A stretch of 27,267 nucleotides of DNA, taken from IMG/VR virus record IMGVR_UViG_3300035703_002616, positions 1 to 27,267 of that record; one strand, 5' to 3'. The notes under the pieces are model-generated. The model did not search any database. It had not been told where the DNA came from and saw only the letters and a program-made list of their open reading frames with translations. Made by a program: the position numbers and the translations under genes. The stretch comes from a virus. The first letter of the stretch is position 1; every line of letters begins with the position of its first letter. Positions 1 through 20,014 of the stretch are shown one piece after another.

Positions 1-4
1 ACGG

Positions 5-97: not shown

Positions 98-157
98 GGT
101 GTTTTATATAATTATACGTCGTATTATTATATTCGTTTATATACAGTGTTCGTTATA
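5..157 (+). repeat. dispersed TTCGTTAT direct repeats
   Basis: TTCGTTATA occurs at 5-13 and 149-157, TTCGTTAT at 29-36, and the shorter ACGTTATA at 43-50. The first two copies begin exactly 24 bp apart. Four related octamers in about 150 bp, each containing the less common CG dinucleotide, is more than expected even in AT-rich DNA. The function is unknown; protein-binding sites are one possibility. Confidence 0.5.
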
Positions 158-195: not shown

Positions 196-229
196 ATTTT
201 ATGTTGTTTGTTATTGTTATTATAAACCG

Positions 230-1129: not shown

Positions 1130-1151
1130 TTAAAAAATTACTGAAAGTACA

Positions 1152-1304: not shown

Positions 1305-1461
1305 TATTTCAGTAAATGGAAATAAAATATTAAGTCAAGTGCCGCAGAATGAATTACAGGAGAATCTGAAACTTATCAGAGGACTTGTATGGACTTCTGG
1401 GGGGAATGATGGAAACATTCAGGTGTCTCTAAATAAAAACGAAGACCATTGCAATGATTGA
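1291..1461 (+). CDS. small conserved-looking phage protein, 56 residues, unknown
   Basis: ATG 1291 lies inside the end of the preceding gene in another frame, with GAAGAAG just upstream as a possible ribosome binding site. The frame ends in TGA at 1459-1461. The product begins MNTYNISVNGNKILSQVPQN and continues with an ELQENLKLIRGL helix and a polar tail. The pattern 'short beta-strand, VNGK-like turn, then E-rich helix' resembles small proteins often seen in cyanophages, but no function is known. The 14-base overlap and codon-like composition support it as a real gene. Confidence 0.65.
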   Translation: MNTYNISVNGNKILSQVPQNELQENLKLIRGLVWTSGGNDGNIQVSLNKNEDHCND

Positions 1462-1507
1462 TTTGTAGTGGTAGAATTGTATTTCAAGATTATTCGCAAA
1501 ATTTTTT

Positions 1508-2257: not shown

Positions 2258-2275
2258 GAATCTTTCATTGACCTT

Positions 2276-2354
2276 TAAGGACGTTTGAAGTAGAATGCAT
2301 CTATGAGATTTGAGAAATCTTATGGGTGCATTTTTATAAGTCAAAGAGTCCTTA
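2276..2354 (+). terminator. intrinsic terminator within a longer nested stem
   Basis: Core: AATGCATC (2294-2301) plus TATGAGATTT (2302-2311) pair with AAATCTTATG (2315-2324) plus GGTGCATT (2325-2332). This gives 18 consecutive pairs, three of them G-T wobbles, closed by a GAG loop. The T-run 2331-2335 follows the stem. It begins 37 bases after the glycosyltransferase stop and should end that transcript. Unusually, an outer helix encloses it: TAAGGAC (2276-2282) pairs with GTCCTTA (2348-2354), and TTGA (2285-2288) with TCAA (2341-2344). Confidence 0.85.
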
Positions 2355-2408
2355 TGAAAACCCGTTAAAAAAACCTTCATAAAACCGTAACTAAGACATT
2401 TTAAAATT

Positions 2409-2564
2409 ATGGCAAAAGTAACAAAAGGAGCATCTGGTAAAATTCTTTCTTATATTCCTGGACCACCTAAGAAAACTCGTCAAGGAGATGGTGATGGTAC
2501 TAAATATGCTGCGAGTAGTCGTAATAAAGCAAGAAAACCTTATAGAGGTCAAGGAAAAGGATGA
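2409..2564 (+). CDS. small basic protein, 51 residues, conserved-looking, unknown
   Basis: ATG 2409 to TGA 2562-2564. The 51-residue product is strongly basic and rich in Gly, Lys and Arg (SYIPGPPKKTRQGDGDG in the middle, KARKPYRGQGKG at the end), with no hydrophobic core or membrane segment, so it may be largely disordered. The stop overlaps the next start as ATGA, a classic translational coupling. It is the first gene after the terminator and may begin a new transcription unit, though no clear promoter is seen in 2355-2408. The PPKKTRQG...KPYRGQG pattern resembles small proteins of other T4-like cyanophages. Nucleic-acid binding is possible but only inferred from charge. Confidence 0.8.
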   Translation: MAKVTKGASGKILSYIPGPPKKTRQGDGDGTKYAASSRNKARKPYRGQGKG

Positions 2565-3217
2565 GTCAATTAATTGTAAATTTGCCTCCACAAAAAGTAT
2601 GGGTTCGTAAAGAATATCTTCGTGATTTTGAAGACGGATATGGTGAATTTATAGAGGGCGTTTGGGTAACGGCAAAGTCTTTACCCGGACGTTCTTTTTA
2701 TTTTGAAACCTATTTGCCAGAATATGGTGCTCTTTATGATAAATTACCAATTAGTGCATTTTGTTCTTCACCAAATACTCCAGATCAAGATTTAAATCTT
2801 CAAAATTTACAATTTTGGGATTGTATGAGTTATGGAGTTGTCTGTGTTCAGAAAAAACACATTGCAGAACTTGATTTTGAAGTTTATACAAGAGATTTTG
2901 GCCAATTAAAGGGACAATACTTGTTTAGTTTGGACAATTATCACCCGTATAATGATAAAATTGATTGCGGAACAAGTGAATTACCAGAGGAACATAAGTC
3001 ACATAACTGTATTTTACTTGAAAATGGTCAATTTGCCTTGTATCCAAACAATAGAATGCGATTGTATAGTCCATCCAGAACACCAGAGACACCAAAAAAT
3101 CCTAATTTTAAAATTTCAACAAAGTTTTATAGAACAGAAATTGGTTTAAAATGGGGTAGATTGGGTGATACTGATGAATATTTTTGGAAAACACCCGAAG
3201 AAAACCAAAATAAATAG
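2561..3217 (+). CDS. hypothetical protein, 218 residues
   Basis: I do not recognise this family. The start ATG 2561 overlaps the previous stop and has AGGAAAAGG directly upstream, which supports it. The product has many aromatic residues in its N-terminal half (VWVRKEYL 13-20, RSFYFETYLPEYGALYDKLP 44-63, LQFWDCMSYGVVCVQ 83-97), two Cys near the centre (C88, C95), and a polar Pro/Asn-rich C-terminal part with LKWGRLGDTDEYFWK (196-210). No signal peptide or membrane segment is seen, so a globular soluble protein is likely. The speD promoter motif overlaps its last codons. Position between a small basic protein and speD gives no functional hint. It is certainly a coding gene. Confidence 0.85.
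   Translation: MSQLIVNLPPQKVWVRKEYLRDFEDGYGEFIEGVWVTAKSLPGRSFYFETYLPEYGALYDKLPISAFCSSPNTPDQDLNLQNLQFWDCMSYGVVCVQKKHIAELDFEVYTRDFGQLKGQYLFSLDNYHPYNDKIDCGTSELPEEHKSHNCILLENGQFALYPNNRMRLYSPSRTPETPKNPNFKISTKFYRTEIGLKWGRLGDTDEYFWKTPEENQNK
3209..3216 (+). promoter_or_regulatory. T4/cyanophage-type late promoter, AATAAATA
   Basis: AATAAATA overlaps the stop codon of the 218-residue gene and lies 35 bases before the speD ATG. It fits the NATAAATA motif described for cyanophage late genes, which sits at the -10 position. By chance such octamers are frequent in DNA this AT-rich, so the call rests mainly on its place between two genes. Confidence 0.5.
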
Positions 3218-3251
3218 ATTTTTCGTAAAAACCGAATTGGAACAGATCTCA

Positions 3252-3578
3252 ATGGGAAAACACCTTCTACTTGAGGTGTATGATGTAGAGTTTAATCTCC
3301 TGAATGATGCAATTTCCATTCAGGAGACAATGGAACGTGGCATCAAACGTGCAAAAATGACAATTTTGAATACTTTTACTCACTGCTTTCTTCCTCAAGG
3401 TTGTACAATTGTAATTGCATTAGCAGAAAGTCACGTTTCTTGTCATACTTGGCCAGAAAATGGATGCATTGCCATTGATGTTTATACTTGCGGAGAAAAA
3501 AATCCCAAGATAATTGCGATTGAACTTCTAAAATACTTAAACTCTGATAATTATAGTCTTAGAGAAGTATATCGTTAA
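3252..3578 (+). CDS. speD: S-adenosylmethionine decarboxylase proenzyme
   Basis: Removes the carboxyl group of S-adenosylmethionine to give the aminopropyl donor for spermidine synthesis; a cytoplasmic pyruvoyl enzyme. The product is 108 residues, slightly shorter than the bacterial forms of about 125-130. The self-cleavage site is intact: ALAESHVSCHTWPENG, with cleavage between E59 and S60, S60 becoming the pyruvoyl group. H65 and C80 (in DVYTCGEKNP) match the spacing of catalytic Ser63, His68 and Cys83 of the Thermotoga maritima class 1B enzyme (+5 and +20). Start ATG 3252 begins with the usual MGKHLLLEVYDV; the frame extends upstream to 3165, but that part overlaps the previous gene. A late-type promoter lies just before it. 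speD is a known auxiliary metabolic gene of T4-like cyanophages. The next enzyme, spermidine synthase, is not in this window and would have to come from the host or elsewhere in the phage. Confidence 0.95.
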   Translation: MGKHLLLEVYDVEFNLLNDAISIQETMERGIKRAKMTILNTFTHCFLPQGCTIVIALAESHVSCHTWPENGCIAIDVYTCGEKNPKIIAIELLKYLNSDNYSLREVYR

Positions 3579-3608
3579 ATAGTAATAGAGATAGCAACCT
3601 CTTTAAAA

Positions 3609-3632
3609 GTTCCAGTTTTACAAAACCGGAGT
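3609..3632 (+). promoter_or_regulatory. hairpin covering the ribosome binding site of the 79-residue gene
   Basis: GTTCC (3609-3613) pairs with GGAGT (3628-3632) and GTTT (3615-3618) with AAAC (3623-3626), with one A-C mismatch and a TACA loop. The Shine-Dalgarno GGAG (3628-3631) is 8 bases before ATG 3640 and lies wholly inside the right arm. Translation could therefore depend on how the transcript is made or opened. T4 uses such hairpins to keep late genes silent on early transcripts. Here this is a prediction. Confidence 0.5.
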
Positions 3633-3639
3633 TGCACAA

Positions 3640-3879
3640 ATGTCTTTTTATCAAGTTGATAGAAATAAAGATTATATGAAAGAAATGTGGGGAACAACTA
3701 GATTGATTACTGATTATCATCAAGAAAATTCAAAAAAAGTAATTCAAGAAATTATGTTTGATCAAGCACCTAAACATAATTTAAAAAAGCAAACAGAATT
3801 ACATGAAGTAATTAGAAATGATTCTGATTATGATGATTGGGAATATGGAACTGAACCAAGTTATGGCAAAATGATATAA
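3640..3879 (+). CDS. hypothetical protein, 79 residues
   Basis: Not recognised. ATG 3640 has a good GGAG 8 bases upstream. The product is soluble and highly charged: MSFYQVDRNKDYMKEMWGTT at the N-terminus, a probable helical middle (NSKKVIQEIMFDQ), and an acidic aromatic tail NDSDYDDWEYGTEPSYGK. No membrane or signal segment is seen. It sits between speD and the gp25 late promoter. In size and position it could be a small virion or assembly-associated protein, but nothing in the sequence demonstrates this. It is far shorter than T4 gp53 (about 196 residues), so it should not be equated with it. Confidence 0.75.
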   Translation: MSFYQVDRNKDYMKEMWGTTRLITDYHQENSKKVIQEIMFDQAPKHNLKKQTELHEVIRNDSDYDDWEYGTEPSYGKMI

Positions 3880-3896
3880 AAAACTATTATAGATAG

Positions 3897-3904
3897 TATA
3901 AATA
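3897..3904 (+). promoter_or_regulatory. T4-type late promoter, TATAAATA, for the baseplate genes
   Basis: A perfect TATAAATA, the T4 late promoter sequence, sits in a 40-base gap and ends 15 bases before the gp25 ATG. Transcription would start around 3911 and give a very short leader. A 5-bp inverted repeat, ACTAT/ATAGT (3883-3897), abuts it. In T4 this motif is read by host RNA polymerase carrying gp55 with gp33 and the sliding clamp. It probably drives gp25, gp6 and the giant gene together. Confidence 0.75.
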
Positions 3905-3919
3905 AACTTTCATTTTTTG

Positions 3920-4321
3920 ATGGCAAATATTACATCAAGGGCATTTTCAGACATTAGTTTATCTTTTTCTAAAAATCCTATTACAAATGATTTGATTGCA
4001 CTCAAAAATGAAGATGCTATTAAAAAATCAGTAATCAATTTAGTAAAAACTCAAATTGGTGAAAGATTTTATAACAATTTATTAGGAAGCAGTATTACCA
4101 CCTCATTGTTTGAATTAAATTCTAGAGGTGATCTTATATTTTTAGAAGAACAAATCAAAAACTTATTAAATAATTATGAACCAAGAATTGTAGTTCAGAA
4201 TGTTTTTCTTGACATTCCTGATGATAGTAATGAATTATATTTACAAATTCAATATGTAATAGTTGGTTTACCAGTACCAACACAAACAATAGATGTCATT
4301 TTACAATCAACTAGGGCATAA
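3920..4321 (+). CDS. 25: baseplate wedge protein gp25
   Basis: Structural protein of the tail baseplate inner ring; in T4 it binds gp6/gp7/gp53 and starts assembly of the contractile sheath. The 133 residues match T4 gp25 (132). The GPW_gp25 fold is visible, with the EPR motif (NNYEPRIVVQNV, residues 84-95) shared with TssE of type VI secretion, and an N-terminal helix with IKKSVINLVKTQIGERFYNN (34-53), the usual 'GER' region. ATG 3920 is chosen; the TTG at 3917 adds one residue only and is less likely. Its stop overlaps the gp6 start as TAATG. Driven by the late promoter at 3897-3904. Confidence 0.95.
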   Translation: MANITSRAFSDISLSFSKNPITNDLIALKNEDAIKKSVINLVKTQIGERFYNNLLGSSITTSLFELNSRGDLIFLEEQIKNLLNNYEPRIVVQNVFLDIPDDSNELYLQIQYVIVGLPVPTQTIDVILQSTRA

Positions 4322-6189
4322 TGTCTTCTTTTAATCAATTCACCAACTTAGATTTTTATAATCTAAGAACTCAAATAAAAGATTATTTGAGGACAAATAG
4401 TAATTTTAGTGACTTCGATTTTGAGGGGTCAAACTTTAGTGTTCTAATTGATATTCTTGCTTATAATTCTTATATAACCTCATTCAATACCAATATGGCA
4501 GTGAATGAGGTTTTTCTTGATAGTGCAACACTTCGTGAAAATGTCGTATCATTAGCAAAAAATATTGGATATCTACCTCGTTCAAAAAGGGCAGCAAGAG
4601 CAAAAGTTTCCTTTAGTGTATATTCTCCTAATGGGCCTAAAACAATTACCCTAAAGGCAGGAATCGTTGCCTTAGGTGCAGTTGAGGGAGGTAATTATAT
4701 TTTCTCAGTTCCCGAAGATATTATAGTGAATGTCGATAATAATGGGTATGCATATTTTGATCAAATTGAAATTTATGAGGGTTCTTTATTATTAAAAACT
4801 TTTACTTTCAATTCAAACGATTTAAATCAAAAATTTATTATTCCAAATGAAGGTGTAGATACTTCAACTATTAGAGTTGATGTTGAATCTTCTATTAGAG
4901 AAAAATATACTCAATATTCTTCGATATTTGATTTAACAAAAGATTCAAAAATTTTCTTATTACAAGAAACTACTGATGAAAGATATGAAATATTATTTGG
5001 AGATAATGTTTTAGGAAAAAAACCAATTAATGGAAGTGGAATTTCCATTAGTTATATTGTTACTAATGGAAAAAATGCAAATGGTTCTAGAAATTTTACA
5101 TTTTCTGGTATTTTAGAGGATAATAATGGTTTTAAGATTACAAGTGGAATATCATTATTAACTACTGTTCAATCTGCAGAAAATGGAGATGATATTGAAT
5201 CAATAGATTCCATTAAGGTTCTTTCACCAAAGGTATATTCATCCCAGTATAGAGCAGTTACAGCAGCAGATTATCAAGGATTGGTTCCTTATCTTTTTAC
5301 AAATATTGAATCAGTAACTGCTTATGGTGGAGAGGAAATAGATCCACCAGAATATGGAAAAGTATTTTTGATTATTAAACCAAGAAATAGTTCGTTTTTA
5401 TCACAATCAGCAAAAGAAGATATTAAAAATAAATTAAAAAATTATACTATTGCTGGGACTACAGTTGAAATATTAAATCTAAAATACTTGTATGTAGAAT
5501 TAGACGTAACTTGTTACTATAATAAAGAGTCTGCTCCAAGTCAACAAGAATTAATTTCAAAAGTTACAAGTACAATTACGGAGTATTCCAAATCTAAAGA
5601 TTTAAACACATTTGGAGGAAGATTTAAGTATAGTAAATTAGGATCAATTATTGACAATACTCAGCAATCAATCACATCTAATATCACAAAAGTAACAATT
5701 CGAAGAAATTTAAATCCATCATTTGGATTACTTGCAAATTATGAATTATGTTTTGGGAATCAATTTCATATAGGAAAAACAAACTATAATATAAAATCAT
5801 CAGGATTTACAATTTTAAATAATTCGGATACTTTATATTTGTCAGATGTGCCTAATTCAGATAACAAAACCGGAAGAATATTTTTCTTTAAACTTGAAAA
5901 TAATTCTCCAGTTATTGTTGTTCAAAATGCAGGTAAAGTTGACTATGAAAAAGGTGAAATTCTCCTCAGTCCTGTTGTTTTTACTTCCTCTATACAATCT
6001 GACGGGATACACATTCAGGCATACCCAGAGTCAAATGATGTCATTGCTTACAAAGATATATACTTAGAGCTTAGTATTCCATATACAAAAGTAAGTGTAG
6101 TTGAAGATACTTTAACTTCTGGTGAAAATACTTCAGGTACTTTATATAAGACAACATCAAGTTATTCAAACGGAAACTTCATAAGATAA
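4321..6189 (+). CDS. 6: baseplate wedge protein gp6, J-like
   Basis: Core of the baseplate wedge. In T4 two gp6 copies and one gp7 form each wedge, and gp6 forms the continuous inner ring. Length 622 residues against 660 in T4. The N-terminal part is clearly gp6: DFDFEGSNFSVLIDILAYNS (31-50), VNEVFLDSATLRENV (61-75) and IGYLPRSKRAARAKV (82-96) align by eye with T4 gp6 (DYDFEGSRLNVLCDLLAYN, LRSSVV, GYLPTSKSAA). A baseplate_J-like segment YSSQYRAVTAADYQGLVP lies at about 306-323. Start ATG 4321 overlaps the gp25 stop by one base; AGGG four bases upstream is a weak ribosome binding site. The gene is immediately followed by the giant gene after one base. Confidence 0.95.
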   Translation: MSSFNQFTNLDFYNLRTQIKDYLRTNSNFSDFDFEGSNFSVLIDILAYNSYITSFNTNMAVNEVFLDSATLRENVVSLAKNIGYLPRSKRAARAKVSFSVYSPNGPKTITLKAGIVALGAVEGGNYIFSVPEDIIVNVDNNGYAYFDQIEIYEGSLLLKTFTFNSNDLNQKFIIPNEGVDTSTIRVDVESSIREKYTQYSSIFDLTKDSKIFLLQETTDERYEILFGDNVLGKKPINGSGISISYIVTNGKNANGSRNFTFSGILEDNNGFKITSGISLLTTVQSAENGDDIESIDSIKVLSPKVYSSQYRAVTAADYQGLVPYLFTNIESVTAYGGEEIDPPEYGKVFLIIKPRNSSFLSQSAKEDIKNKLKNYTIAGTTVEILNLKYLYVELDVTCYYNKESAPSQQELISKVTSTITEYSKSKDLNTFGGRFKYSKLGSIIDNTQQSITSNITKVTIRRNLNPSFGLLANYELCFGNQFHIGKTNYNIKSSGFTILNNSDTLYLSDVPNSDNKTGRIFFFKLENNSPVIVVQNAGKVDYEKGEILLSPVVFTSSIQSDGIHIQAYPESNDVIAYKDIYLELSIPYTKVSVVEDTLTSGENTSGTLYKTTSSYSNGNFIR

Positions 6190-6190
6190 G

Positions 6191-9100
6191 ATGGCAGAAA
6201 TTAAAAGAGTAAAAATTCAAAATATTATCGAAACTCAAATTCCAGAGTTTTTGAATTATGATAATCCACTTTTCAAAGAATTTTTAAGTCAATATTATCT
6301 TTCATTAGAATACCCAACTGGAATAATTGATATTGCAGAAAATATTGATAGTTATAAAACAATTGAAAAAGTATTTGATCAAGAAGATTTTTATAATAAA
6401 AATAATCCTTGTATTTTATCTTCTGAATTAGATAGCATTTCTTCAGTCATAAATGTAAATCATACTGTAGGATTTTCAGATAAGTATGGTCTATTAAAAA
6501 TTGATAATGAAATTATCACTTATACTGGAATTACAACAAACTCTTTTACTGGTTGCATAAGAGGTTTTAGTGGACTTTCTGAAAATGATAATAAAGAATT
6601 AGTATTTTCATCAACAGAATCAACAACTCACCAAAAAGATTCTACTGTAATTAATATTAATTTACAATTTTCATCTAAGTTATTTGAAAAATTTAAATAT
6701 CATTTTCTTCCAGGATTTGAGGGTAGAGATTTTGTTCAAGATTTGGACATTGATTCTATTTTAGTTGCTGCAAGAGAGTTTTATAAAGCAAAAGGAACTG
6801 ATTTATCATTTTCTATTCTTTTTAATATTCTTTTCGGAAAAGAAGCTTCAGTTATAAATCCATCTGATTACATTGCAGTTCCCTCATCAAATTCATATTT
6901 AAATACAAAAAATATTCTTGTTGAAAAAATTTCAACTGGTAATGTATTAGATTTAAGAGGGAAAACAATATATCAAAATATTGATGGAAAATTATCAAGT
7001 GCATCAATTTACAATATAGAATACAGACTCATTGATGGAAAAGAATTTTATGAATTTCATTTGGATCCAGAAACAATAATAGGTGAATTTAAAACAACCA
7101 AAAAAACTATAATAACAGAAAAAGTTTTCTCTGGAATTGGTTCAACTTCAATTGATGTTGATTCTACTATTGGTTTTGAAAACGAATCAACAATTGTAGT
7201 TAAATCAAATTTAATTGAAACTCCATTATATTTAAATTATAAAAGTAAAACATTAAATCAGTTTTTACAAGTTGATTCTCCATTATATGATTTAAATCCA
7301 GGAGATTTAGTTATAGAAGATAATTTTGCATATGTAACCAGTGAAGAATCAGTTATACAATTTAGAATATGCAATACTATCTCTGATGTTGATGTCAATA
7401 ATACAATTGGACTTAGAGAAGGTGACAAAATTAAGGTTCTTAGTCTTGGAGATTCTATAGATAATAGACCAGAATTTTTAAACTGGAATTATAATGTTTC
7501 TGGAATTGGATTTTCGGTAGGAAAAGCACAAAGTTTTAATATTTTAGATTTAAATAATATAAATTATGGAGTGAGTAATACCTATATCGATCAATCTGAG
7601 GAAAATTTATATGTTTCTTCTTCTGGATTTCCAGAATATAAATTTACTGGTAATAATAGATTAAATATTTTTACTAGAACATCCCCCGAAACTATAACAA
7701 CCAATCAACCTCACAATTTTGAATCAGGTGAAATGGTTTATGTTGGAGTTTCTACTATTTCTGGTATAAAAAATGGATATTATTTTGTATCAAAAGTAGA
7801 TAATAATAGTATAAAGTTATCATTTAGTAATTTTGATAATTTTAATGATAACTTTATACAATTTAATGATGGATCATATACTATATCTGTAGTTAAATCT
7901 GGTTATGAAGATAAAAATTCTTCTAATTATGTAAAAAAAGTAAAAGAACAAAATTTATTTAAAAAAATACCACTCAAAAGATATTCAGAATCTATATCAA
8001 AAATTGATTCGGATACATTATCAGGTCCCATAGGTATTTTAAACAATGGAGTTCAACTTTATTCTCCAAAAGTTTTAAATCAATCAATTTATTATGGAAG
8101 GATTGAGAATATATCCATTGTAAGTAATGGCAATAATTATGACGTAATAAATCCACCAAAAATTAAAATTTCTTCTACATCTGGAAATGGAGCTGTATCC
8201 CACGTTAATGTTAGTGGTTCAATAGATGAAATAAAAGTAGTATCTCCTGGTATTGGATTTTTAGAAAAACCTAAAATCACTGTAACTGGTGGTAACGGCT
8301 CTAATGCAATTTTAGATTCAAATTTTGTAAAAGAAAGAGTAATTTCTGAATTTAATGCATTTTCTGGAGTAGATACTAATTTAGATTCCATTACTTTTTT
8401 AAATAATCACAATTTTATTACAGGTGATGAATTAATCTATAATAACAATTCAAATGTAAGTGTAAGTCCACTACAAAATAATTCAAAATATTTTGCAGGA
8501 GTTGTCTCTCCGACAACTATAAAATTATATAGTAACCAACTAGATTCTTATTCTGGAATTAACACCGTATCAATTAGTGGAATAGGAACAGGATATCATA
8601 ATTTTAAGACAGTAGAATTTAAAAATACAATTAATAAGATCTATGTAATTAATGGTGGAGATAATTATTCAAATAAGTTTATTAATATTTTAACTCCAGA
8701 AAATGATACTTATTATGATAAGTTTGGATTTACTGGAATTAATACGTCTGATAGTGTATTAATTTGCAAAAATCATACATTTAAAGATGGTGATTTGATT
8801 TACTATTCTTTTAGTGGAACTTCAATTGGAGGAATATCAACAACAAATCAATATTATGTAAAAAATATTGATTCCAATTCATTTAAACTTTCGGATGCTG
8901 GTTCTATAACTTCTACTCCAGATAAAAGCAATTTTAATTCACAAAAATATATAACTTTGACTAGTGTTGGAGTTGGAACTCATAAATTTTCATACCCACC
9001 AATAAAAATTTCTTTTGAATCAAACATTGGATTTACTTCAACTTCAATTTCATATCCAGAACTTTTACCAATTGTTTTGGGGTCAATTGAGAGTATTCAA

Positions 9101-12100
9101 TTGGAAAATCCAGGGGTTGGATATGGGTCACCTGATATAATTAACTTTAATAATCCACCAGTTGTTGAAATTGAAAAAGAATCATCCCAAGCAGTATTAC
9201 GACCAATAGTAAATAATGGATCTATCACTGAAGTCCAAATTTTAAATTCTGGTTCTGGATATTTAAATGACACTTACATTGAAATTATTGGTTCGGGAAA
9301 ATATGCAGAAGTTATACCAAATATTATAAATGGAAAAATTGATTCTGTTAAAATCATAAATCGTGGAATTGGATATGATAATAAAATTACTTTCATTATA
9401 AAAAGAAGAGGTTCTGATGCAAAATTCTTTTCCAATTTAACTGAATGGAGAATAAACCAAGTTAATAAATTGAATTCTGTTATTAATACTGACGATAATA
9501 AAGGATTATTACTTCCCAGTCAAAATGAAGATTTTGGTTTGGAGTATGCAGCATTTTTCCCTAAAGTAAGTGTCCAAGAAACCCCAATATCACATTCCCC
9601 AATTCTTGGTTGGGCATATGACGGAAATCCAATTTATGGACCTTATGGATACGAAAATTTAGATGGTTCTGGAAATATTATAAAATTGAAATCAGGATAT
9701 AAAATAAAAGATATACTCTCAAATTCTCTCCGACCAGATAAATCAAATGGATTTTTTATTGATGACTATGAATATTCAATAGATTCCGATTCCGATTTAG
9801 ATGAGTACAATGGAAGATTTTGTGTAACACCAGAATATCCAAATGGAATTTATGCTTATTTTTGCAATTTAGATGAAAATGATAATAATTCTTTCCCATA
9901 TGTTATTGGAAATTATTTTAAGAACAATAGAATAAAAGAAAATTATTTGAAATCATTTAATCAAAAAGATTTAGATATATCTAGTCTTAATTTAATAAGA
10001 AATACAAATCCATACTTTAAAAAAGATTCATCTTACAGTTATTTGCAAGATATCGATTCAAAATATAATCAAGAATATATTATCAAAAAAATCCTTCCAT
10101 CATCAATTGATTCTGTTTTAATTTATGAACCTGGTGAAAATTATCAAGTAAATGATAGAATCATTACAAATAATACTGGAACAGAAGGAAAAGGATTTGA
10201 TTCTTTTGTTTCTAGGATTTCTGGTAAACCTCTAGAATCATTTTCTGTTGGAATTAATACTATAAATTCTATATCTTTTTATAATATAGGACAAACATTT
10301 GTTGGAATTAGCACGATTCCACACGGATTACTTTCTTCAGAAATAATTGAAATTGAAGATTTATCTTCTACTGAATTTAATTTTATTAAAGGTAAAAAAT
10401 TAATTTCTGTATCTCAAAGAGAAACAAATGTGGTTGAAGATATTCAACCACAGTCAACAACTGGTGAAATAACAAATATAAAAGTAAATGATATTTCTGG
10501 ATTTGATATTGATGATTATATAAAAATTAATAATGAAACTGTTCAAATTATTGGCATAAATCAAACCCTTAATGAATTAATTATTAGAAGAAATCAATCG
10601 TTTTTGGGAATACATACATCACCAACTGTAGCATCTCTTCTACCGAAAAAATTTACTTTTATTGAAGAATCAATTCCAAATATAACAAGTATTTTCAATA
10701 ATCAAAAAGTATATTTTAATGCAACAAATTCTATCGGAATTGGAACAACAGGAACATATAATTATAAAAATGTTGGAATCAAAACAGTTTATGGTGGACT
10801 TGTTTCTTCAAATCAATCTGTTGTTGCCATTAACACTTCATTATTGTCTGTTGGTGATTATATCTCTGGAACTCATATTAGTGCAGGAACAGCAGTAACT
10901 AGCATAGGCATTGGGTCCATCGGAATAAATCCTGCACACACTTATAGTGGAGTTGGAATTGCTACAGTATTAATTGATGTTCAAAGAAGTGTTTATGATT
11001 ATTTTATTCCAGAAAAATCAATTTATTTGCCAAAACACAATTTCTATACAGGACAAGAACTATTATACAAAAAAGGTTCCACTGGAATTGGAATAAGTGT
11101 TTCCAATAATCCAAATGATGTTGCATTTGAATTGAATAATCAAATAGTTTATGCAGTAAATTATGGAGAAAACTTTTTAGGAATTTCTACTATTGGATTT
11201 ACTAGTACATCAGGCATAGGAACAAATTACAATTCATTGTATTTTAAAACACCTCCCAATAATATTGGCAAAGATCATTCATTAACTACAAATTATCCAA
11301 TAATAACTGCTAACGCAAATAGTTATACTTCAACAATTCAAACAAAAGAAAATCATGGACTTTTAACAAATGATTTAATAAGATTTGAATATACTCCATC
11401 ATTTATTGAAGAAATAATCCTTAGATATGATTCATACAACAAAAAGATAACTTCTGGTCTTTTTAATTTTTCACCATTAACAGTAAATACAAGTAATAAT
11501 AAAATTACTATTGGAAACAACTCATTTAATACTGGAGATAAAATTGTTTATTATACAAATGGTGGAAATGTAATTGGTGGTTTATCTGATAAAAAAACTT
11601 ATTTTATAATAAAAGAGAGTAAAGATTCTATTAGACTATCTAATTATAAATCAGATGCATTAGTTGGTATTGGGATATCAGTAACTTCTACTGGAACTGG
11701 AACTCATTCATTTGCTAAGATAAATCCTCAAATAAAAGTTACTAAAGGAAATATTATTAAATTTACTTTAGAAAATATTTCTAATATGAAATTAGTTTTA
11801 TATAAAGATTCAGAATTTTTATATAAAATTAATGAAATTAATTATATTCTTCCTAATGGATCTTATCAATTACAAACAAACAATAAAGATATACCAAAAG
11901 AATTTTATTATAATTTGATTCCATTAAATGGATCTGAAATAAGTCAAGATAAGGAAGTATATAATGCAAATAAAATTGTATCACAAGTAAATGTTTATAC
12001 TATAAAAGATTATTCTGTAATAAAAATTACTGATAAATCTTTTAAAATTAATTTACCACAAACACCAGAAATATTATCAATTTCAAATTTAAACGAGATA

Positions 12101-15100
12101 ATATATTCTACAAATTCAAAGTCTGCTTATGGACCTATTTTTGACCTGACTGTTACATTTGGTGGAAAAGGTTATAAAAAATTACCAAAAATAACAAGAG
12201 TAGAAAGCATTCTTGGAAGTAATTCTATATTAAAACCATCATCAAATAATATTGGAAAAATTGAATTATTAGAACTTACAAAAAATAGTTTTGATTATCC
12301 AACAGATAATACATTACTTCCAAAATTAAGTGTTCCTGCAATTTGCGAAATATCAAAGATTTCTAGAATTGGATCTATTGATATTATTAATTTTGGAAGA
12401 AATTATAATGCAAAACCAACTCTTAAAGTTGTTGGTAGAGATGATATTATGTTATCTGCTAATATTCAAGGTGGTTCTGTTGTTTCTGTTGATGTGATAC
12501 AAAATGCAAATGATTTATTTGTTCCATTAGATATTATTTCTACTAGAAATTCTAATGGTTATGATATTGATGAAATTGTTGTTGGTAGTGGAGGCACTAG
12601 CGTAACTTTAGAACTTATTAATTCCGATATTCAAAGATATCCGTTAATAAATTCTGGGTATGGTTCAACAATAACCAATTTTCCATTTAGTGTAGGTGAT
12701 GAAATCTTTATAGAGAGATGTAATATAGAAGAGACAAATAAATCCAACTTTAATTCTGTTGATTATAATTATAAGTTTTTTACAGTAATTGGTATTAATA
12801 CAGGAAATTCTACTGTTACCTATTCTACTGATAACGTTTCCAATAATTTCGGAACATATCAAAATGATTTTGGGTATGGATACGTTGTCAACAAAAAAGA
12901 TATGGCATCATTTAAAATGAACTTATCTGATGATTTGTCATATCTGTCAGGTGAAAAAGTATTATCTACTAATTTTAAAGCCACTGTAATGGAAAATGGA
13001 TGGGATAATGAATTAAATGAACTGCGATTAATTGATTGTGTTGGATCTTTAAAAGTCGGTGATAAACTTTATGGTGAGAAATCAAAATTAAACGGAGAAA
13101 TTAAAAATATAAATCAATTTTCACTAAGATCTTCTCTCGGTGTTTTGAGAAATAAAATTACTTACAAACAAATTAATAATAGTTTAACTAATGATTATTT
13201 GATTAGAATAGAAGATAATGATTATTATCAAAAATTTGCATACTCAATTAAGAGTGAAGTTCCATATGATGATTGGAAAGAACCAGTCAGATCATTAAAT
13301 CATCCATCAGGATTTAAAGAATTTTCAGATTACAATCTTGTAAGTAAACCAACTAATGGAAAATCAAAAACATTAAAAATTTCACCTATTGATTTAAAGG
13401 TTGATTTATCAGTTAATATTGATAATTATGAATCGTTATATTCAAAATCTAATGTTTGTTTGGTTACAGAGGATAATATATTTGAAGATGGTTCAATAGA
13501 AAATGTTTTAATTGGTTCTGAATCTGCAAATGTATCAGGTATTGGAATAACACAAGCAAAAGGTTTATTCTTATCTCCATATATTTTAAACAAAACGAAT
13601 AAGGTACTTTCTATAGATGACATTAGTGATCAATTTACAGGAATAGTTACAACTTCTGGTGGAAAAATAGTAGGTATTAGTTCATTTAAATTAAAAAATA
13701 ATGATACTCCAATTTTTTATAAAGAATTTGCTGCAAATAATTCCAATATTGTTAAGTTAGATTCAAATTCATTTTTCCTACAAAATCACAATTTCCAAAC
13801 TGGTCAAAAATTAAAATATACTTCACCAGTAGGAAATGAAATTGGAATTAAAACAACTAACTTAGTAGAAAGTTCAATCATTAACATTAATCAGAATGGT
13901 AATGTTTCTGTTTCTTCAACTGATTCTAGCATCATTATGCAAATTGGATCAGGTATAGGTAGTGCTGTTTATGAAAATGGTTATAATATAGGAATTACAA
14001 CTACAATTATTGGCATTTCATCTAATGCACCTTCCGGTGTAACTTATTCCATCTTTGGGTCTGTTGATCCGTTTATTCCATCAACTGCTATAACTGGGAT
14101 TGGAACTGGTGCAAGATTTACAGTTTTAATTACATACAATGGTTCTGGGTCCCCACTATCAACATCAATCGTATTAAGAGATGGTGGAAGTGGATATGCA
14201 GTCGGAGATACTGTTTCTATTGCTGGTACATACTTCTATGGAGCAACTCCAACAAATGACTTGAGTTTTGTTGTTTCTAAAGTTTCTAGCACAAAAGTTA
14301 TTTCAGCAGCAAATGCAACATTTTCAAATGTTTCTTCTACTTCTATTACTGGTATTGGTTCAAGTGCAATTTTCAATGTTAAAAGAGGTGCCGATGGTTC
14401 TATTACAAGCACGGAAATTGTTGATGGTGGAGTTGGATATGCACTTACGGATAAAATAAAAATAGTCGGTAATTTAATAGGTGGAGCAACACCACAAGAT
14501 GATTATGTATTTTCACCAACAATACTTGGAACTAACAAATTACCAAAAACAGTATATGTCAGTAAATTAAATGATGCACAATTTAAAGTAAGTGGAATTT
14601 CATCTTTAATCGCAGATTCTGAATTGGATATTGTAAATTTAGGAATTGGAACACACTCTTTTGAATATGTTGGATCAAATGAAAGTTCTTTAATATTAAT
14701 TGATAATATTATTCAGAGTCCGATTTACAGAAGAAATATTTACACAACTCTAGCAAATAGTGTTTCTATTGGATCAACAGTAATATATGTTTCATCTGGA
14801 ATTAATTCAATTACAAAAATTGATAAATTAAAAATTAATGATGAAATTTTAAATATTATTAGTGTTGGTATAGGATCTACCAATTCAATTGAAGTGGAAA
14901 GAGCATTTTTTGGTTCAGAAGAAAAAAATCACAATATAGGAGATACAGTTAGTGTCATTAGAGGTGACTATAATATTCAAAAAGATGTAATTTATTTCTC
15001 AACTCCTCCCTACGGTCCAACAGGTCCAGAAGGATTTAAAATAAATTCTACTTTCCAAGGAAGGGTATTTTCTAGATCATTTGATGATTTAACTCAACCA

Positions 15101-18100
15101 AATGATAAAAATATTATCTTAGATGACATTTCGGTTGATTTTACTGGAATTGCTGCAACTAACTTTATTTTAAAGTCAAATAATTCTACCGTTGTTGGAA
15201 TTTTTACCAATACTAACGGAAGTGGAACCGATATAAACAATAATCCATTTATTTTAATTAACAATATTTCTCAAGTATCCAGAGATGATTTTATCATTGA
15301 TACTCCTAACCAAAATACCATTAAGTTCATAGGTGGAGCACCAAGTGCTGGAAAAATTATTAAACTTGGATTATCCTCAAGTTTTGGATATCAACCATTA
15401 ATAGGTGCTGCTGCAACAGTTAGTGTTTCTGCTGCTGGAACTATTAGTAATGTATATTTGAATGGTTATGGTTCTGGTTATAGAACAGCACCAATAGTCA
15501 GTATTTCTTCCACAGTTGGATCTGGTGCTATTATAACCTCATCAATTGGTGCTGGTGGAACAATTACAGGATTATCTATAACTAATGCTGGATCTGGGTA
15601 TACAACTGCTGGAATTACAGAAGTAATGATACCAATTCCATCAAATTATAGTGATATACCTCTATCTTATGCGAGTGGCAATACTGGTTTGGGGACAAAC
15701 GCAAAAGTATCTGTTCAGGTAGGAAGTGGATCTAGTATTATACAATTTAATATTGAAGAACCAGGAATTGGATACAAAGTTGGAGATGTTTTAGTAGCAC
15801 CCGGAATAACAACAAATCCAAATTCACCAAGTTTTACTGAATTAAAATTTACAGTAGAAGAGGTGTTTACTGATAAATTCAGTGGTTTTTATCCAGGACA
15901 ATTTATTCAATTTGAAGATATATCAAAGTTCTTTAATGGTAAAAAAAGAAAATTTACTTTATATTACAAAGTAAATAACGTTCCTGAAATTATAACATTA
16001 AAATCCCAAGATGGGACAGATTTTGATTTAAATAAAAATATGTTTGTTTTTGTAAATGATATTTTACAAGAACCAATAAAGTCATATGTATTTACTGGAA
16101 ACAGAATAATTTTCAAAGAAGCACCAAAACAAAACTCAAAATGTAATATTCTTTTTTACAGGGGTTCTTCTCTTGATGTTTCAGAAGTTGATCCACCAAA
16201 AACTATAAAGTCCGGTGATGAAATACAAATTTTAGAAAATGCTTTTGTTTCTGATGATATTAGTCAGTTTGAAAGAGTAGTGAAAAAAATAAATTCTACC
16301 GATGATTTTGATACTTTTACTTATGATAGTTTGGGTATAAATCCAGATCCAACTGCAGCAAGACCTTTAAAGTGGACAAAACAAACAAAAGACAGAATTA
16401 TTAATGGTGTTTTATATTCTAAAGAAAGACCAAGTTTGAAGTCAAACATTTACCCATCAACAAATGTTATAAAACCTGTCTCTAAGACTGATAGTGAAAT
16501 ATATGTAGAAAATGCTTTCCCTCTTTTTTCTGGGGTAGACTTATTGACTGAGGATTCTAGAGATGTTTCAATTGTTGAAAATAGATCAATATCACCAGGA
16601 ATACTTACAGCAGTGGTTTCAGCATCATCTACTATAAGTTCAATTTCAATTATTGATTCTGGAAATGGTTATTTGACTAATATTTCCCCAAATGTCTTAG
16701 TATCCTCCTCCGCATTACAAATAAGAGATCCATTTAAAAATTTTAATACATCAGTTGGAGTATCTTCAATTGTTAATTTTAAATCTATAATTATTAACAA
16801 TAATAATCATTATATTGCAGTTGGTTCTACAAATTTTGTTGGGTTATCTACAAATGGAACTCAATGGTCTAGTTATGAAATAATTTCTGGACAAAATATT
16901 ACATATAATTCAATTGCATTTACAGAAAATAATAGATATGTTTCTGTTGGTTCCAGTGGAAAAATATATTCTTCTGTTGGTATAGGCACTACATTCAATT
17001 CTTGGGAAGAAGTTAAGAAGTTTAAACTTTCTGGTTCAATTGGAGTTGGAAATGAAACTTATAATGAATTTAATGAGTATTCGGAAGAGTTTAAATCCGT
17101 ATCATATTCAGAAAATCTTGATTTATGGGTTGTTGTTGGATCATCTAAAACTACTTTTTATGGGGTTGGAGCAGGCACAACAACATTCTTTGAAAGAACT
17201 TTTAGTTCACAGAATTTAAATAGTGTTGCAAATAACAATACAGTATTTTCTGTAGTCGGAGTGAATGGATATATTGGAGTTTCTACCGATGCATATGATT
17301 GGAGTCAAGTGAATCAAGGATTAACAAACAATTCTTTAAATTTTGTAGTTTGGGATTCTGATAGATTTATTGCCTGTGGAAATAATTCCACTATTATTAC
17401 TTCACAGAATGGAAATTCTTGGTCACTTATTAATGAAGTTTCCCCATCTTCCATTGATTTTGTAAAGATTAAACCACACAGTGAAGGTTTATATGTTGCC
17501 TTGGATATTAATAATGACTTATATTATTCATTCAATTTAAAAGAATGGCATTTGAAAAAAACTGGAAACTTTAATGATATTATTTTCAATAATAGTATTG
17601 GTGATTATGGAAGAACAGTGATTGTTGGTTCTGCTGGAACTTCTTTATATTCTGATCCAGTTTATAACAGAGCATCTGGTATAGGTAGTGTAACTTCTGG
17701 AATTATTACTTCAATTCAAATTACAAATGAAGGATTTGGATATTTTGAAAGTAATTTACCTTCGATTATTGTTGAATCGGATACATCAAAAACAGAAACT
17801 ATTTACTCTGTAAAAGTTAAAGGTGATTATGGAACAATAATTGGAATTAATACTTTCCCACAAGGAACTCCAGGAATTGGAACAACTTCTCCAAAAGTTG
17901 AATTTGTCTTAAAATCTAATTATTATGATAATTTAAATTTGGGAATTGGTTATTCATCAATTAATACTTTTGCAGATGAAAATAATAATCCAATTACATA
18001 TAGTCAGTTATCTTCTGGTGATTACTTTGTTATATCAAATAGTTCTGCAAAGGTAAAAACTGGTTATAATTTAGTTGGAATAACTACTTTAAATGGATTT

Positions 18101-18415
18101 GATGAAATAGTTGGTATAGCAACATCATTTATTGATGGTGTTTATCGTGTAGAATTAGTTTCACCACCATCTAGTGGAATTGTCACTGTAACTTGTCATT
18201 TCCAACCAGTTCAACTCTCTCCTGGTGCTGGTGAGGCTCCAATTGAAGTTGGGCTAGTGACTTCTAAGTATTATGGAAATTACTCCTGGAGTAAAATCTA
18301 TGATTATCAGAATAGACAAAGATTATCTCCATTTTCTTTTGCAGTTAATACCTTAAATGGAATAACTGGAATTGAGAGTGGCCCTCAACTTTATAGAACT
18401 AAATCATTAAAATAG
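6191..18415 (+). CDS. giant 4074-residue baseplate protein at the gp7 position, with YHYH and propeller-like regions
   Basis: Probable virion structural protein, inferred to take the gp7 place in the wedge from its position between gp6 and gp8; T4 gp7 is only 1032 residues, and sequence similarity to it is not evident by eye. The N-terminus (FLSQYYLSLEYP, then YHFLPGF and YKAKGTDLSFSILFNILFG, about 170-225) and the C-terminus (GNYSWSKIYDYQNRQRLSPF) are of the kind found in large cyanophage structural proteins. In order: a YHYH-family domain at 1130-1230 (HSPILGWAYDGNPIYGPYG, H1135); a tandem pair of about 70 residues at 2634-2777; GPTGPEG near 2941; a seven-fold propeller-like repeat at 3535-3823. 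About fifteen Gly-rich GxGY modules and seven or more 'HNF.tGd.i.Y' modules fill the rest, so it is probably an extended beta-rich fibrous protein. No signal peptide or membrane segment. Its frame is uninterrupted over 12.2 kb. ATG 6191 follows the gp6 stop by one base, so translation is probably coupled. Confidence 0.9.
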   Translation: MAEIKRVKIQNIIETQIPEFLNYDNPLFKEFLSQYYLSLEYPTGIIDIAENIDSYKTIEKVFDQEDFYNKNNPCILSSELDSISSVINVNHTVGFSDKYGLLKIDNEIITYTGITTNSFTGCIRGFSGLSENDNKELVFSSTESTTHQKDSTVININLQFSSKLFEKFKYHFLPGFEGRDFVQDLDIDSILVAAREFYKAKGTDLSFSILFNILFGKEASVINPSDYIAVPSSNSYLNTKNILVEKISTGNVLDLRGKTIYQNIDGKLSSASIYNIEYRLIDGKEFYEFHLDPETIIGEFKTTKKTIITEKVFSGIGSTSIDVDSTIGFENESTIVVKSNLIETPLYLNYKSKTLNQFLQVDSPLYDLNPGDLVIEDNFAYVTSEESVIQFRICNTISDVDVNNTIGLREGDKIKVLSLGDSIDNRPEFLNWNYNVSGIGFSVGKAQSFNILDLNNINYGVSNTYIDQSEENLYVSSSGFPEYKFTGNNRLNIFTRTSPETITTNQPHNFESGEMVYVGVSTISGIKNGYYFVSKVDNNSIKLSFSNFDNFNDNFIQFNDGSYTISVVKSGYEDKNSSNYVKKVKEQNLFKKIPLKRYSESISKIDSDTLSGPIGILNNGVQLYSPKVLNQSIYYGRIENISIVSNGNNYDVINPPKIKISSTSGNGAVSHVNVSGSIDEIKVVSPGIGFLEKPKITVTGGNGSNAILDSNFVKERVISEFNAFSGVDTNLDSITFLNNHNFITGDELIYNNNSNVSVSPLQNNSKYFAGVVSPTTIKLYSNQLDSYSGINTVSISGIGTGYHNFKTVEFKNTINKIYVINGGDNYSNKFINILTPENDTYYDKFGFTGINTSDSVLICKNHTFKDGDLIYYSFSGTSIGGISTTNQYYVKNIDSNSFKLSDAGSITSTPDKSNFNSQKYITLTSVGVGTHKFSYPPIKISFESNIGFTSTSISYPELLPIVLGSIESIQLENPGVGYGSPDIINFNNPPVVEIEKESSQAVLRPIVNNGSITEVQILNSGSGYLNDTYIEIIGSGKYAEVIPNIINGKIDSVKIINRGIGYDNKITFIIKRRGSDAKFFSNLTEWRINQVNKLNSVINTDDNKGLLLPSQNEDFGLEYAAFFPKVSVQETPISHSPILGWAYDGNPIYGPYGYENLDGSGNIIKLKSGYKIKDILSNSLRPDKSNGFFIDDYEYSIDSDSDLDEYNGRFCVTPEYPNGIYAYFCNLDENDNNSFPYVIGNYFKNNRIKENYLKSFNQKDLDISSLNLIRNTNPYFKKDSSYSYLQDIDSKYNQEYIIKKILPSSIDSVLIYEPGENYQVNDRIITNNTGTEGKGFDSFVSRISGKPLESFSVGINTINSISFYNIGQTFVGISTIPHGLLSSEIIEIEDLSSTEFNFIKGKKLISVSQRETNVVEDIQPQSTTGEITNIKVNDISGFDIDDYIKINNETVQIIGINQTLNELIIRRNQSFLGIHTSPTVASLLPKKFTFIEESIPNITSIFNNQKVYFNATNSIGIGTTGTYNYKNVGIKTVYGGLVSSNQSVVAINTSLLSVGDYISGTHISAGTAVTSIGIGSIGINPAHTYSGVGIATVLIDVQRSVYDYFIPEKSIYLPKHNFYTGQELLYKKGSTGIGISVSNNPNDVAFELNNQIVYAVNYGENFLGISTIGFTSTSGIGTNYNSLYFKTPPNNIGKDHSLTTNYPIITANANSYTSTIQTKENHGLLTNDLIRFEYTPSFIEEIILRYDSYNKKITSGLFNFSPLTVNTSNNKITIGNNSFNTGDKIVYYTNGGNVIGGLSDKKTYFIIKESKDSIRLSNYKSDALVGIGISVTSTGTGTHSFAKINPQIKVTKGNIIKFTLENISNMKLVLYKDSEFLYKINEINYILPNGSYQLQTNNKDIPKEFYYNLIPLNGSEISQDKEVYNANKIVSQVNVYTIKDYSVIKITDKSFKINLPQTPEILSISNLNEIIYSTNSKSAYGPIFDLTVTFGGKGYKKLPKITRVESILGSNSILKPSSNNIGKIELLELTKNSFDYPTDNTLLPKLSVPAICEISKISRIGSIDIINFGRNYNAKPTLKVVGRDDIMLSANIQGGSVVSVDVIQNANDLFVPLDIISTRNSNGYDIDEIVVGSGGTSVTLELINSDIQRYPLINSGYGSTITNFPFSVGDEIFIERCNIEETNKSNFNSVDYNYKFFTVIGINTGNSTVTYSTDNVSNNFGTYQNDFGYGYVVNKKDMASFKMNLSDDLSYLSGEKVLSTNFKATVMENGWDNELNELRLIDCVGSLKVGDKLYGEKSKLNGEIKNINQFSLRSSLGVLRNKITYKQINNSLTNDYLIRIEDNDYYQKFAYSIKSEVPYDDWKEPVRSLNHPSGFKEFSDYNLVSKPTNGKSKTLKISPIDLKVDLSVNIDNYESLYSKSNVCLVTEDNIFEDGSIENVLIGSESANVSGIGITQAKGLFLSPYILNKTNKVLSIDDISDQFTGIVTTSGGKIVGISSFKLKNNDTPIFYKEFAANNSNIVKLDSNSFFLQNHNFQTGQKLKYTSPVGNEIGIKTTNLVESSIININQNGNVSVSSTDSSIIMQIGSGIGSAVYENGYNIGITTTIIGISSNAPSGVTYSIFGSVDPFIPSTAITGIGTGARFTVLITYNGSGSPLSTSIVLRDGGSGYAVGDTVSIAGTYFYGATPTNDLSFVVSKVSSTKVISAANATFSNVSSTSITGIGSSAIFNVKRGADGSITSTEIVDGGVGYALTDKIKIVGNLIGGATPQDDYVFSPTILGTNKLPKTVYVSKLNDAQFKVSGISSLIADSELDIVNLGIGTHSFEYVGSNESSLILIDNIIQSPIYRRNIYTTLANSVSIGSTVIYVSSGINSITKIDKLKINDEILNIISVGIGSTNSIEVERAFFGSEEKNHNIGDTVSVIRGDYNIQKDVIYFSTPPYGPTGPEGFKINSTFQGRVFSRSFDDLTQPNDKNIILDDISVDFTGIAATNFILKSNNSTVVGIFTNTNGSGTDINNNPFILINNISQVSRDDFIIDTPNQNTIKFIGGAPSAGKIIKLGLSSSFGYQPLIGAAATVSVSAAGTISNVYLNGYGSGYRTAPIVSISSTVGSGAIITSSIGAGGTITGLSITNAGSGYTTAGITEVMIPIPSNYSDIPLSYASGNTGLGTNAKVSVQVGSGSSIIQFNIEEPGIGYKVGDVLVAPGITTNPNSPSFTELKFTVEEVFTDKFSGFYPGQFIQFEDISKFFNGKKRKFTLYYKVNNVPEIITLKSQDGTDFDLNKNMFVFVNDILQEPIKSYVFTGNRIIFKEAPKQNSKCNILFYRGSSLDVSEVDPPKTIKSGDEIQILENAFVSDDISQFERVVKKINSTDDFDTFTYDSLGINPDPTAARPLKWTKQTKDRIINGVLYSKERPSLKSNIYPSTNVIKPVSKTDSEIYVENAFPLFSGVDLLTEDSRDVSIVENRSISPGILTAVVSASSTISSISIIDSGNGYLTNISPNVLVSSSALQIRDPFKNFNTSVGVSSIVNFKSIIINNNNHYIAVGSTNFVGLSTNGTQWSSYEIISGQNITYNSIAFTENNRYVSVGSSGKIYSSVGIGTTFNSWEEVKKFKLSGSIGVGNETYNEFNEYSEEFKSVSYSENLDLWVVVGSSKTTFYGVGAGTTTFFERTFSSQNLNSVANNNTVFSVVGVNGYIGVSTDAYDWSQVNQGLTNNSLNFVVWDSDRFIACGNNSTIITSQNGNSWSLINEVSPSSIDFVKIKPHSEGLYVALDINNDLYYSFNLKEWHLKKTGNFNDIIFNNSIGDYGRTVIVGSAGTSLYSDPVYNRASGIGSVTSGIITSIQITNEGFGYFESNLPSIIVESDTSKTETIYSVKVKGDYGTIIGINTFPQGTPGIGTTSPKVEFVLKSNYYDNLNLGIGYSSINTFADENNNPITYSQLSSGDYFVISNSSAKVKTGYNLVGITTLNGFDEIVGIATSFIDGVYRVELVSPPSSGIVTVTCHFQPVQLSPGAGEAPIEVGLVTSKYYGNYSWSKIYDYQNRQRLSPFSFAVNTLNGITGIESGPQLYRTKSLK
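14090..14522 (+). repeat. tandem duplication of about 70 codons inside the giant gene
   Basis: Residues 2634-2777 contain two successive copies of one unit. Each begins ITGIG..A.F.V, continues with DGG.GYA..D...I.G, and closes with GGATP..D or GATPTND, followed by a strand. Copy one contains ITGIGTGARFTV and GATPTNDLSFVV; copy two contains ITGIGSSAIFNV and GGATPQDDYVF. The DNA copies have diverged, so the duplication is not recent. Confidence 0.7.
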
Positions 18416-18445: not shown

Positions 18446-20014
18446 ATGTCTGCTATTATATCTGATCAGTTTAGGATATTAAATGCTGAAAATTTTGTAA
18501 AAAGTTTTGTTTCTGTTGGCAATTCCAATAGTTATTATACTTTTATTGGTCAACCAAATTCTAACAACCCACAAGCAAATGGTCTTTCCACTTGGGGATC
18601 TGGAGTTCCCCCTCTCGATGGGTTTAAAGAGGAAAATGAAATAAAAGAAACAATTATTGCCCTAAAAAAAATTACTTCCAGTGATGTTAGACGAGTAATT
18701 AGAAAAGTTAATTGGACAGCAGGAACAATTTATGAAATGTATAGAAATGACTATTCAATTTATAATTTGAGTCCTATTACAAATTCTTCTAGTTTATATG
18801 ATTGTAACTATTATGTAGTGAATCAAAATCTTCAGGTTTATTTGTGTTTAAATAATGGTTATTCTCCTGATAATTTAAAAGGAAAAGCATCTTTAGATGA
18901 ACCATCATTTGTTGATTTAGATCCAAGACCAGCAGGTGATAGTGGAGATGGATATATTTGGAAATATTTGTTTACAATAAAACCATCAGAAATTATTAAA
19001 TTTGATACAGTTGAATATATTCCAGTGCCAGAAAACTGGGGAGAAGTTGGAGAATCTATTTCAATTAAAAATAATGCAATTGATGGAAAAATAGAAACAG
19101 TTTTGATTAATAGTTATGGAAATAATTATTCTTCAACATTATCAAAAAGAACTTTTACGAATATTCCGATTTTAGGTGATGGATTTGGAGGAAAAGTAAC
19201 TATTACTTTAGACTCTTCCGGAAAAGTTTCTGATGTTTTTGTTTCTGATGGTGGTTATGGTTATACAATGGGTTATGTTGATTTTAAACCAGGTTCAACT
19301 GGTGTAGCATCAGATTTACAAAATAATGGAACAATTGCTTCTTTTTCTGTTATAATTCCACCGAAAGGAGGTCACGGATATGATATTTATAGAGAACTTG
19401 GTTCATACAGGGTATTAATATATTCCAGATATATTACAGACCCATCAAATCCGGATACAATTTTAGGTAATGATTTTGCTAGGGTTGGTATTATTAAAAA
19501 CCCAACAGTATCTGGAAGTAATGTAGAAATATTAACAACATCTGAAGTAAGTGCATTAAATTCATTAAAGTTAACGGGTGCTGCTGTTTCAACAACAACT
19601 TATGCAGTTGACTCCGTAATTAAGCAAACAGTAGGAACAGGAATAACAGCAATTGGATTTGTTGCTTCTTGGGATAATATTACTGGTGTATTAAAGTATT
19701 ATCAACCAGTTGGATTAGCAACTGCTGGTGTAAATTATACTATTAACTCATTTTCCACCTCAATCTCAACTGGTGGGTCACTGCAAATATCTGGAGCAGC
19801 AATAGGATCAAATTTGAATATTGATAACTCTTTTAATGGATCTAGTGTAGTGATAAATAGTAGGACATATCAACTTGGTAGTAACTTTATTTCTGGAATT
19901 TCTTCTTCAGAATATAACAAAAAGTCCGGAGAGATTATTTATATAGATAATAGACAGCCAATACCAAGATCGGCAAATCAAAAAGAAGATATCAAAATCG
20001 TTTTGGAGTTTTAA
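18446..20014 (+). CDS. 8: baseplate wedge protein gp8 with a large insertion
   Basis: Peripheral baseplate wedge protein; in T4 gp8 is a dimer that binds the gp6-gp7 wedge next to gp10. The gp8 signature is clear: GDGYIWKYLFTIKPS (167-181), matching T4 GDGYVWEYLFEIPPD, an FARVGIIKNP segment (344-353) matching the RQISIITNP region, and the C-terminal SGEIIYIDNRQPIPRSANQK (494-513), matching T4 SGEMIYMENRPPI. At 522 residues it is nearly 190 longer than T4 gp8 (334). The extra length lies mainly around 205-300, which carries GxGY-type modules (SYGNNY, SDGGYGYTMGY), and around 355-490. No Shine-Dalgarno is evident before ATG 18446. The next gene starts six bases after its stop. Confidence 0.93.
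   Translation: MSAIISDQFRILNAENFVKSFVSVGNSNSYYTFIGQPNSNNPQANGLSTWGSGVPPLDGFKEENEIKETIIALKKITSSDVRRVIRKVNWTAGTIYEMYRNDYSIYNLSPITNSSSLYDCNYYVVNQNLQVYLCLNNGYSPDNLKGKASLDEPSFVDLDPRPAGDSGDGYIWKYLFTIKPSEIIKFDTVEYIPVPENWGEVGESISIKNNAIDGKIETVLINSYGNNYSSTLSKRTFTNIPILGDGFGGKVTITLDSSGKVSDVFVSDGGYGYTMGYVDFKPGSTGVASDLQNNGTIASFSVIIPPKGGHGYDIYRELGSYRVLIYSRYITDPSNPDTILGNDFARVGIIKNPTVSGSNVEILTTSEVSALNSLKLTGAAVSTTTYAVDSVIKQTVGTGITAIGFVASWDNITGVLKYYQPVGLATAGVNYTINSFSTSISTGGSLQISGAAIGSNLNIDNSFNGSSVVINSRTYQLGSNFISGISSSEYNKKSGEIIYIDNRQPIPRSANQKEDIKIVLEF

Follow-up and report, generated by a model that had tools for sequence, protein, structure and literature searches.

The giant baseplate protein gp7 encoded in this cyanophage DNA contains, at residues 3510–3824, what structure prediction supports as a closed seven-bladed beta-propeller with four-stranded blades. 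Comparison with relatives shows that the propeller marks one lineage of T4-like cyanophages, in which it is kept as part of gp7. We infer, with confidence somewhat above even, that this lineage-kept domain is placed on an outer arm of the baseplate and serves as a non-catalytic binding platform.

The window, that is, the whole stretch of DNA analyzed, is a 27,267-base virus record with a GC content of ~26–33%. Its gene order runs from an HNH endonuclease gene (230–1129, upstream of the baseplate module) through glycosyltransferase-like, S-adenosylmethionine decarboxylase, gp25, gp6, and 4074-aa ORF genes to gp8 and a large DUF4815/VrlC-type protein. A 218-aa ORF at 2561–3217 matches PHROG 3704 'ferredoxin' (343 bits) and has no Pfam match; the label may be misplaced, as the ORF is far longer than a ferredoxin. 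The baseplate wedge genes are as follows.

3917..4321, plus strand: gp25, baseplate wedge subunit (PF04965, PHROG 261)
4321..6189, plus strand: gp6, baseplate wedge subunit (PF21379, PHROG 219)
6191..18415, plus strand: gp7-type baseplate wedge protein, 4074 aa (gene order, PHROG 2885, T4 gp7 match)
18446..20014, plus strand: gp8, baseplate wedge subunit (PF09215, PHROG 438)

The best matches of gp6 and gp8 are the Synechococcus phages Sf-FS3, S-SCSM2R, and S-SSM7; this kinship makes a marine picocyanobacterium the probable host.

Because it lies between gp6 and gp8, as gp7 does in the T4 gene order, matches PHROG 2885 ('baseplate wedge subunit', 2108 bits), and aligns with T4 gp7, the 4074-aa ORF is assigned as gp7, the baseplate wedge protein of a T4-like cyanophage. 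The first-pass annotation had spoken of a giant baseplate protein, to which the PHROG and T4 gp7 matches now give a name. Residues 148–291 align with T4 gp7 678–813 (hhalign probability 92, E 5.7e-7), and a profile comparison with T4 gp7 in the PDB gave an E of 2.2e-5. The cyanophage protein is ~4 times the size of T4 gp7, and the homology is confined to ~140 N-terminal residues; a T4 gp7 counterpart of its C-terminal region was looked for and none was detectable. T4 Gp7 has been described as absent from cyanomyophages and pelagimyophages, with VrlC in its place (PMC7029224). The N-terminal match argues, contrary to that description, for a Gp7 that is present and enlarged, and so backs the gp7 label doubted there. 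In S-SSM7 (locus 1–15674) and Sf-FS3 (locus 1–15668), the gp7 region is split over three consecutive ORFs, two of them very large with one of ~1 kb in between; it forms two ORFs in DSL-LC02 and B23, and a single ORF in close relatives. Within the 4074-aa protein, the following parts can be told apart.

6632..7063, plus strand: T4 gp7-homologous N-terminal region, residues ~148–291 (hhalign, PDB profile match)
9437..9874, plus strand: YHYH domain (PF14240), residues 1083–1228 (88.8 bits, cut-off 25)
16619..16717, plus strand: flanking small repeat A and linker, residues ~3477–3509 (G-x-G-Y motif at 3491)
16718..17662, plus strand: predicted seven-bladed beta-propeller, residues 3510–3824 (AlphaFold2, VIA-align, blade profile)
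16718..16780, plus strand: predicted N-terminal closing (velcro) segment, residues ~3510–3530 (W/F3518 on the strand completing blade 7)
17663..17815, plus strand: flanking small repeat B, residues ~3825–3875 (G-x-G-Y motif at 3848)
17816..18412, plus strand: gp7 C-terminal region (in relatives, conserved next to the propeller)

The repeats are evident in the protein sequence. All seven motifs listed in the first-pass annotation (HYIAVGST, RYVSVGSSG, LWVVVGSS, FSVVGVNG, RFIACGNNS, LYVALDINN, and RTVIVGSAG) were found, at gp7 residues 3541–3816. It had placed them at window positions 16790–17660, which indeed correspond to residues 3534–3824; these residues belong to the domain, but its true start lies ~25 residues earlier, at ~3510 (window ~16718), because the N-terminal side supplies strand D of blade 7. 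The tryptophan said to follow most motifs is present as well (W motifs at 3559, 3605, 3704, 3744, and 3786), and blade 3 lacks a W there. A unit length of about 41 residues is accurate as an average but not for each unit: the spacings between A strands are 42, 62, 42, 40, 41, and 37, repeat lengths range over 37–62 residues, and blade 2 ends with an extension of ~20 residues. A profile made from 18 blades, all from other phages (S-8S55, S-CAM9, and DSL-LC03), detects seven copies in gp7 3510–3824 with 52.4 bits; the top score was 6.2 bits among 500 shuffles and 2.1 among gp7 tiles off the domain.

Structure prediction and comparison with the PDB yielded both circular closure and seven blades; an open ring or fewer than six blades, the outcomes named beforehand as contrary to a propeller, did not occur in the model. 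The AlphaFold2 model, built with a 63-sequence alignment, has a mean pLDDT of 90.5 and a pTM of 0.86. In VIA-align, model residues 49–363 (gp7 3510–3824) align with seven-bladed propellers of known structure at Z 27–29 and, for most matches, an rmsd of 2.6–3.5 Å. In the Foldseek ranking, Ycf48 chains come second and third, alongside many WD40 propellers, and the predicted structure of S-SSM7 gp7 matches the propeller model along its full length. According to both the model and the alignment, blade 7 has only strands A, B, and C of its own, and its fourth strand (D) precedes blade 1. On that closing strand, one column holds W in 96% of relatives (weighted), in the place of the blade-end W, and F3518 in the window copy. 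The predicted closure of blade 7 is thus a classical velcro.

The propeller sits between two copies of a small beta repeat, whose G-x-G-Y motifs are 345–371 residues apart in propeller carriers. The same motifs are 41–48 residues apart in the propeller-less S-SM2, B23, S-SCSM1, and SynMITS9220M01, the four such phages in which both motifs could be located. At the level of sequence, this spacing shows the propeller to be a clean insertion of ~310 residues near the gp7 C-terminus, bounded on either side by a small beta repeat. The small repeat itself (G-x-I-x-S-I-x-I-x-x-x-G-x-G-Y) occurs in at least seven copies in gp7, against a mean of 0.11 in shuffles; its sites lie at 969–1062, 2660–2669, 3128–3137, 3485–3494, and 3842–3851, and two copies flank the propeller.

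At the equal gp7 site, the propeller is found in S-SSM7, Sf-FS3, S-SCSM2R, S-8S53/55/56, S-CAM9, DSL-LC02, and DSL-LC03, whereas it was undetected in gp7 of S-SM2, P-SSM2, Bellamy, SynMITS9220M01, S-B05, B23, and S-SCSM1. The carrier proteins are annotated as baseplate wedge, YHYH protein, or 'large exoprotein', and the propeller is unnamed in the records examined. A full-text search, with most subscription papers outside its reach, found no publication on this gp7 domain. A loci search with the bare window domain returned no related loci, and a 7-member propeller alignment was too divergent as a query. Among IMG/VR contigs found via the gp7 C-terminal region, 78 of 80 contain the propeller by BLAST, and the remaining 2 end just before its position. 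Conversely, contigs found via the propeller have it in one ORF with the gp7 C-terminal region in 83 of 84 cases, and gp8 is nearby in 82 of 84, the exceptions being contigs cut off at or shortly after that point. In a gp8 tree built for 17 phages, a single gain or loss explains the propeller distribution, with modest support (63/82; 62% of bootstraps). A mobile cassette was considered and rejected, since every full contig examined has the propeller in gp7 ahead of the same C-terminal region.

Of three gp7 segments compared, the propeller shows the lowest conservation in 1233 of 1275 pairs, with a mean identity of 0.45 as opposed to 0.62 and 0.57 for the other two. In 119 closer pairs, its median dN/dS is 0.185, compared with 0.129 and 0.158, although some dS values are high and the ratios are rough. 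The propeller evolves faster than its neighbors, yet under purifying selection. Conservation peaks in blades 6–7 and the exit linker and is lowest in blade 2 and the A–B loops, the differences between blades being small. Invariant positions in the 63-sequence alignment are mainly fold residues (Gly, Trp, Ser, Val), and no conserved acidic/arginine catalytic cluster stands out among these relatives. The first-pass annotation had proposed looking for a conserved pocket across homologues; no conserved residue set resembling a pocket stood out in the same alignment.

As to fold family, the suggestion of an HCF136-like or BNR/sialidase-like propeller held in part: the HCF136/Ycf48-type BNR group is nearest, by the prediction and by the Pfam and PDB matches of relatives, but the sialidase likeness amounts to a degenerate Asp-box. 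The window copy has no Pfam match to PF14870 (PSII_BNR), and, searched by itself against Pfam, PHROG, and PDB sequences, the window propeller gave nothing usable, with FGF and RCC1 below cut-off. The DSL-LC03 copy, by comparison, scores 31.2 bits with PSII_BNR (cut-off 27) and matches the solved Ycf48 (2XBG) with an E of 5e-5, and 9 of the 63 alignment members match PSII_BNR at E ≤ 0.01 (best 2.3e-9). These relationships place the gp7 propeller in a broad BNR/Ycf48-like group. Like Ycf48/HCF136 (PF14870; PDB 2XBG, 5OJR), it would have seven blades with a repeat of the V-G-x-x-G-x-I-x-x-S-x-[DN]-G-x-x-W type; in contrast to that free lumenal assembly factor, it forms an internal part of a phage baseplate protein. 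The surface with which Ycf48 binds D1 is a six-arginine patch (PMC10403576). When columns rather than superposed residues were compared, the window domain had only 5 Arg, and conserved R/K columns were few and scattered. Because the D1-binding arginine patch is missing, the sequence evidence indicates that the gp7 propeller is not a Ycf48. A bacterial genome scan with the DSL-LC03 copy, which detects close relatives only, found none. Similar propellers occur in unrelated phages, in a tail fibre of Caulobacter phage KSC (locus 4001–4375) and a protein of Limnohabitans phage DC31 (locus 4500–6290). In the Actinomycetia phage DSL-LC01, one is a free protein near collagen-like genes (locus 4896–5768), annotated as a photosystem II assembly factor.

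In the proposed arrangement, the N-terminal few hundred residues of gp7 would, as in T4, anchor the protein to the core of the wedge, and the ~3700 residues that follow would form an outer arm showing the propeller at the baseplate edge. We infer this outer position across a gp7 C-terminal region whose model is weak (pLDDT 65, too poor for a fold search) and which has no detectable T4 counterpart. The entry segment, blades 6–7, and exit linker, as the more conserved side, would be seated on gp7, and the variable blades and A–B loops would point outwards. The propeller, whose shape is one often used for binding platforms, would then act as a non-catalytic binding platform that faces either the surface of the host or a different tail protein.

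For the ligand of such a platform, the host cell surface is favored, at about an even chance, because the propeller evolves faster; a partner tail or fibre protein follows close behind, so that host-surface contact and tail-protein docking are nearly equally likely. Docking, to which we attach a little less than even confidence, would make the propeller a structural dock for another virion protein (a side fibre, VrlC/DUF4815, or gp8), with no host contact. It is favored by the fixed position in gp7, by the gp8 tree, on which one gain or loss suffices, by the purifying selection, and by the lack of swapping; a receptor-binding tip that adapts fast would not typically show a dN/dS well below 1 or lack signs of domain swapping. 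Examples of either role exist among phage propellers: that of phi11 is receptor-binding (PMC4901313), and that of the SU10 nozzle provides a short-tail-fibre dock (PMC9509320), a precedent for docking. Carriers also have an extra ORF of 225–605 aa soon after the VrlC-type gene, but so does the propeller-less P-SSM2 (527 aa). Speaking against a dock, no part of the gp7 tail is less conserved than the propeller, whereas a virion-internal interface would be expected to be conserved. That a propeller from the group of Ycf48, a cyanobacterial photosystem assembly factor, was captured once by the gp7 of a cyanophage lineage and is now an adsorption module directly touching the cyanobacterial surface seems unlikely to us.

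An enzyme that clears the host surface, sialidase-like or otherwise glycan-cleaving, would suit the BNR-like sequence group and the degenerate Asp-box-like S-x-x-G-x-x-W motifs in the blades. Classical sialidases have six blades, however, against seven here, and the top-conserved positions among the 63 relatives are mainly structural, with no acidic/arginine active-site cluster, which leaves catalysis very improbable. Still harder to credit is a mimic of host Ycf48 that acts on host photosystem II. Relatives do match PSII_BNR and Ycf48 structures, but the domain is internal to a virion baseplate protein, the D1-binding six-arginine patch (PMC10403576) has no visible counterpart, and related propellers are also found in phages whose hosts are not photosynthetic. 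The preferred reading, a non-catalytic binding platform, concerns a separable gp7 domain that one lineage has and another lacks, and hence a concrete part for host-recognition tests.

By setting, the closest known propeller appears to be the C-terminal domain of phiKZ gp131 (gp131C; 4GBF), which, from its description, is likewise a seven-bladed propeller at the periphery of a myophage baseplate (PMC4901313). It belongs to a separate protein of an unrelated phage, whereas the gp7 propeller is a built-in domain; its absence among the Foldseek and VIA-align matches listed is no argument against the likeness. The phi11 receptor-binding protein also displays a baseplate propeller, whose cavity could accommodate a sugar, but it has five blades and is a trimeric receptor-binding protein of a siphophage (PMC4901313). 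The nozzle protein of SU10 and T7, like gp7, contains a propeller within a structural tail protein, with velcro closure and, in SU10, seven blades; it differs in being from a podovirus and in that the propeller makes up the protein core, docking fibres and needle (PMC9509320).
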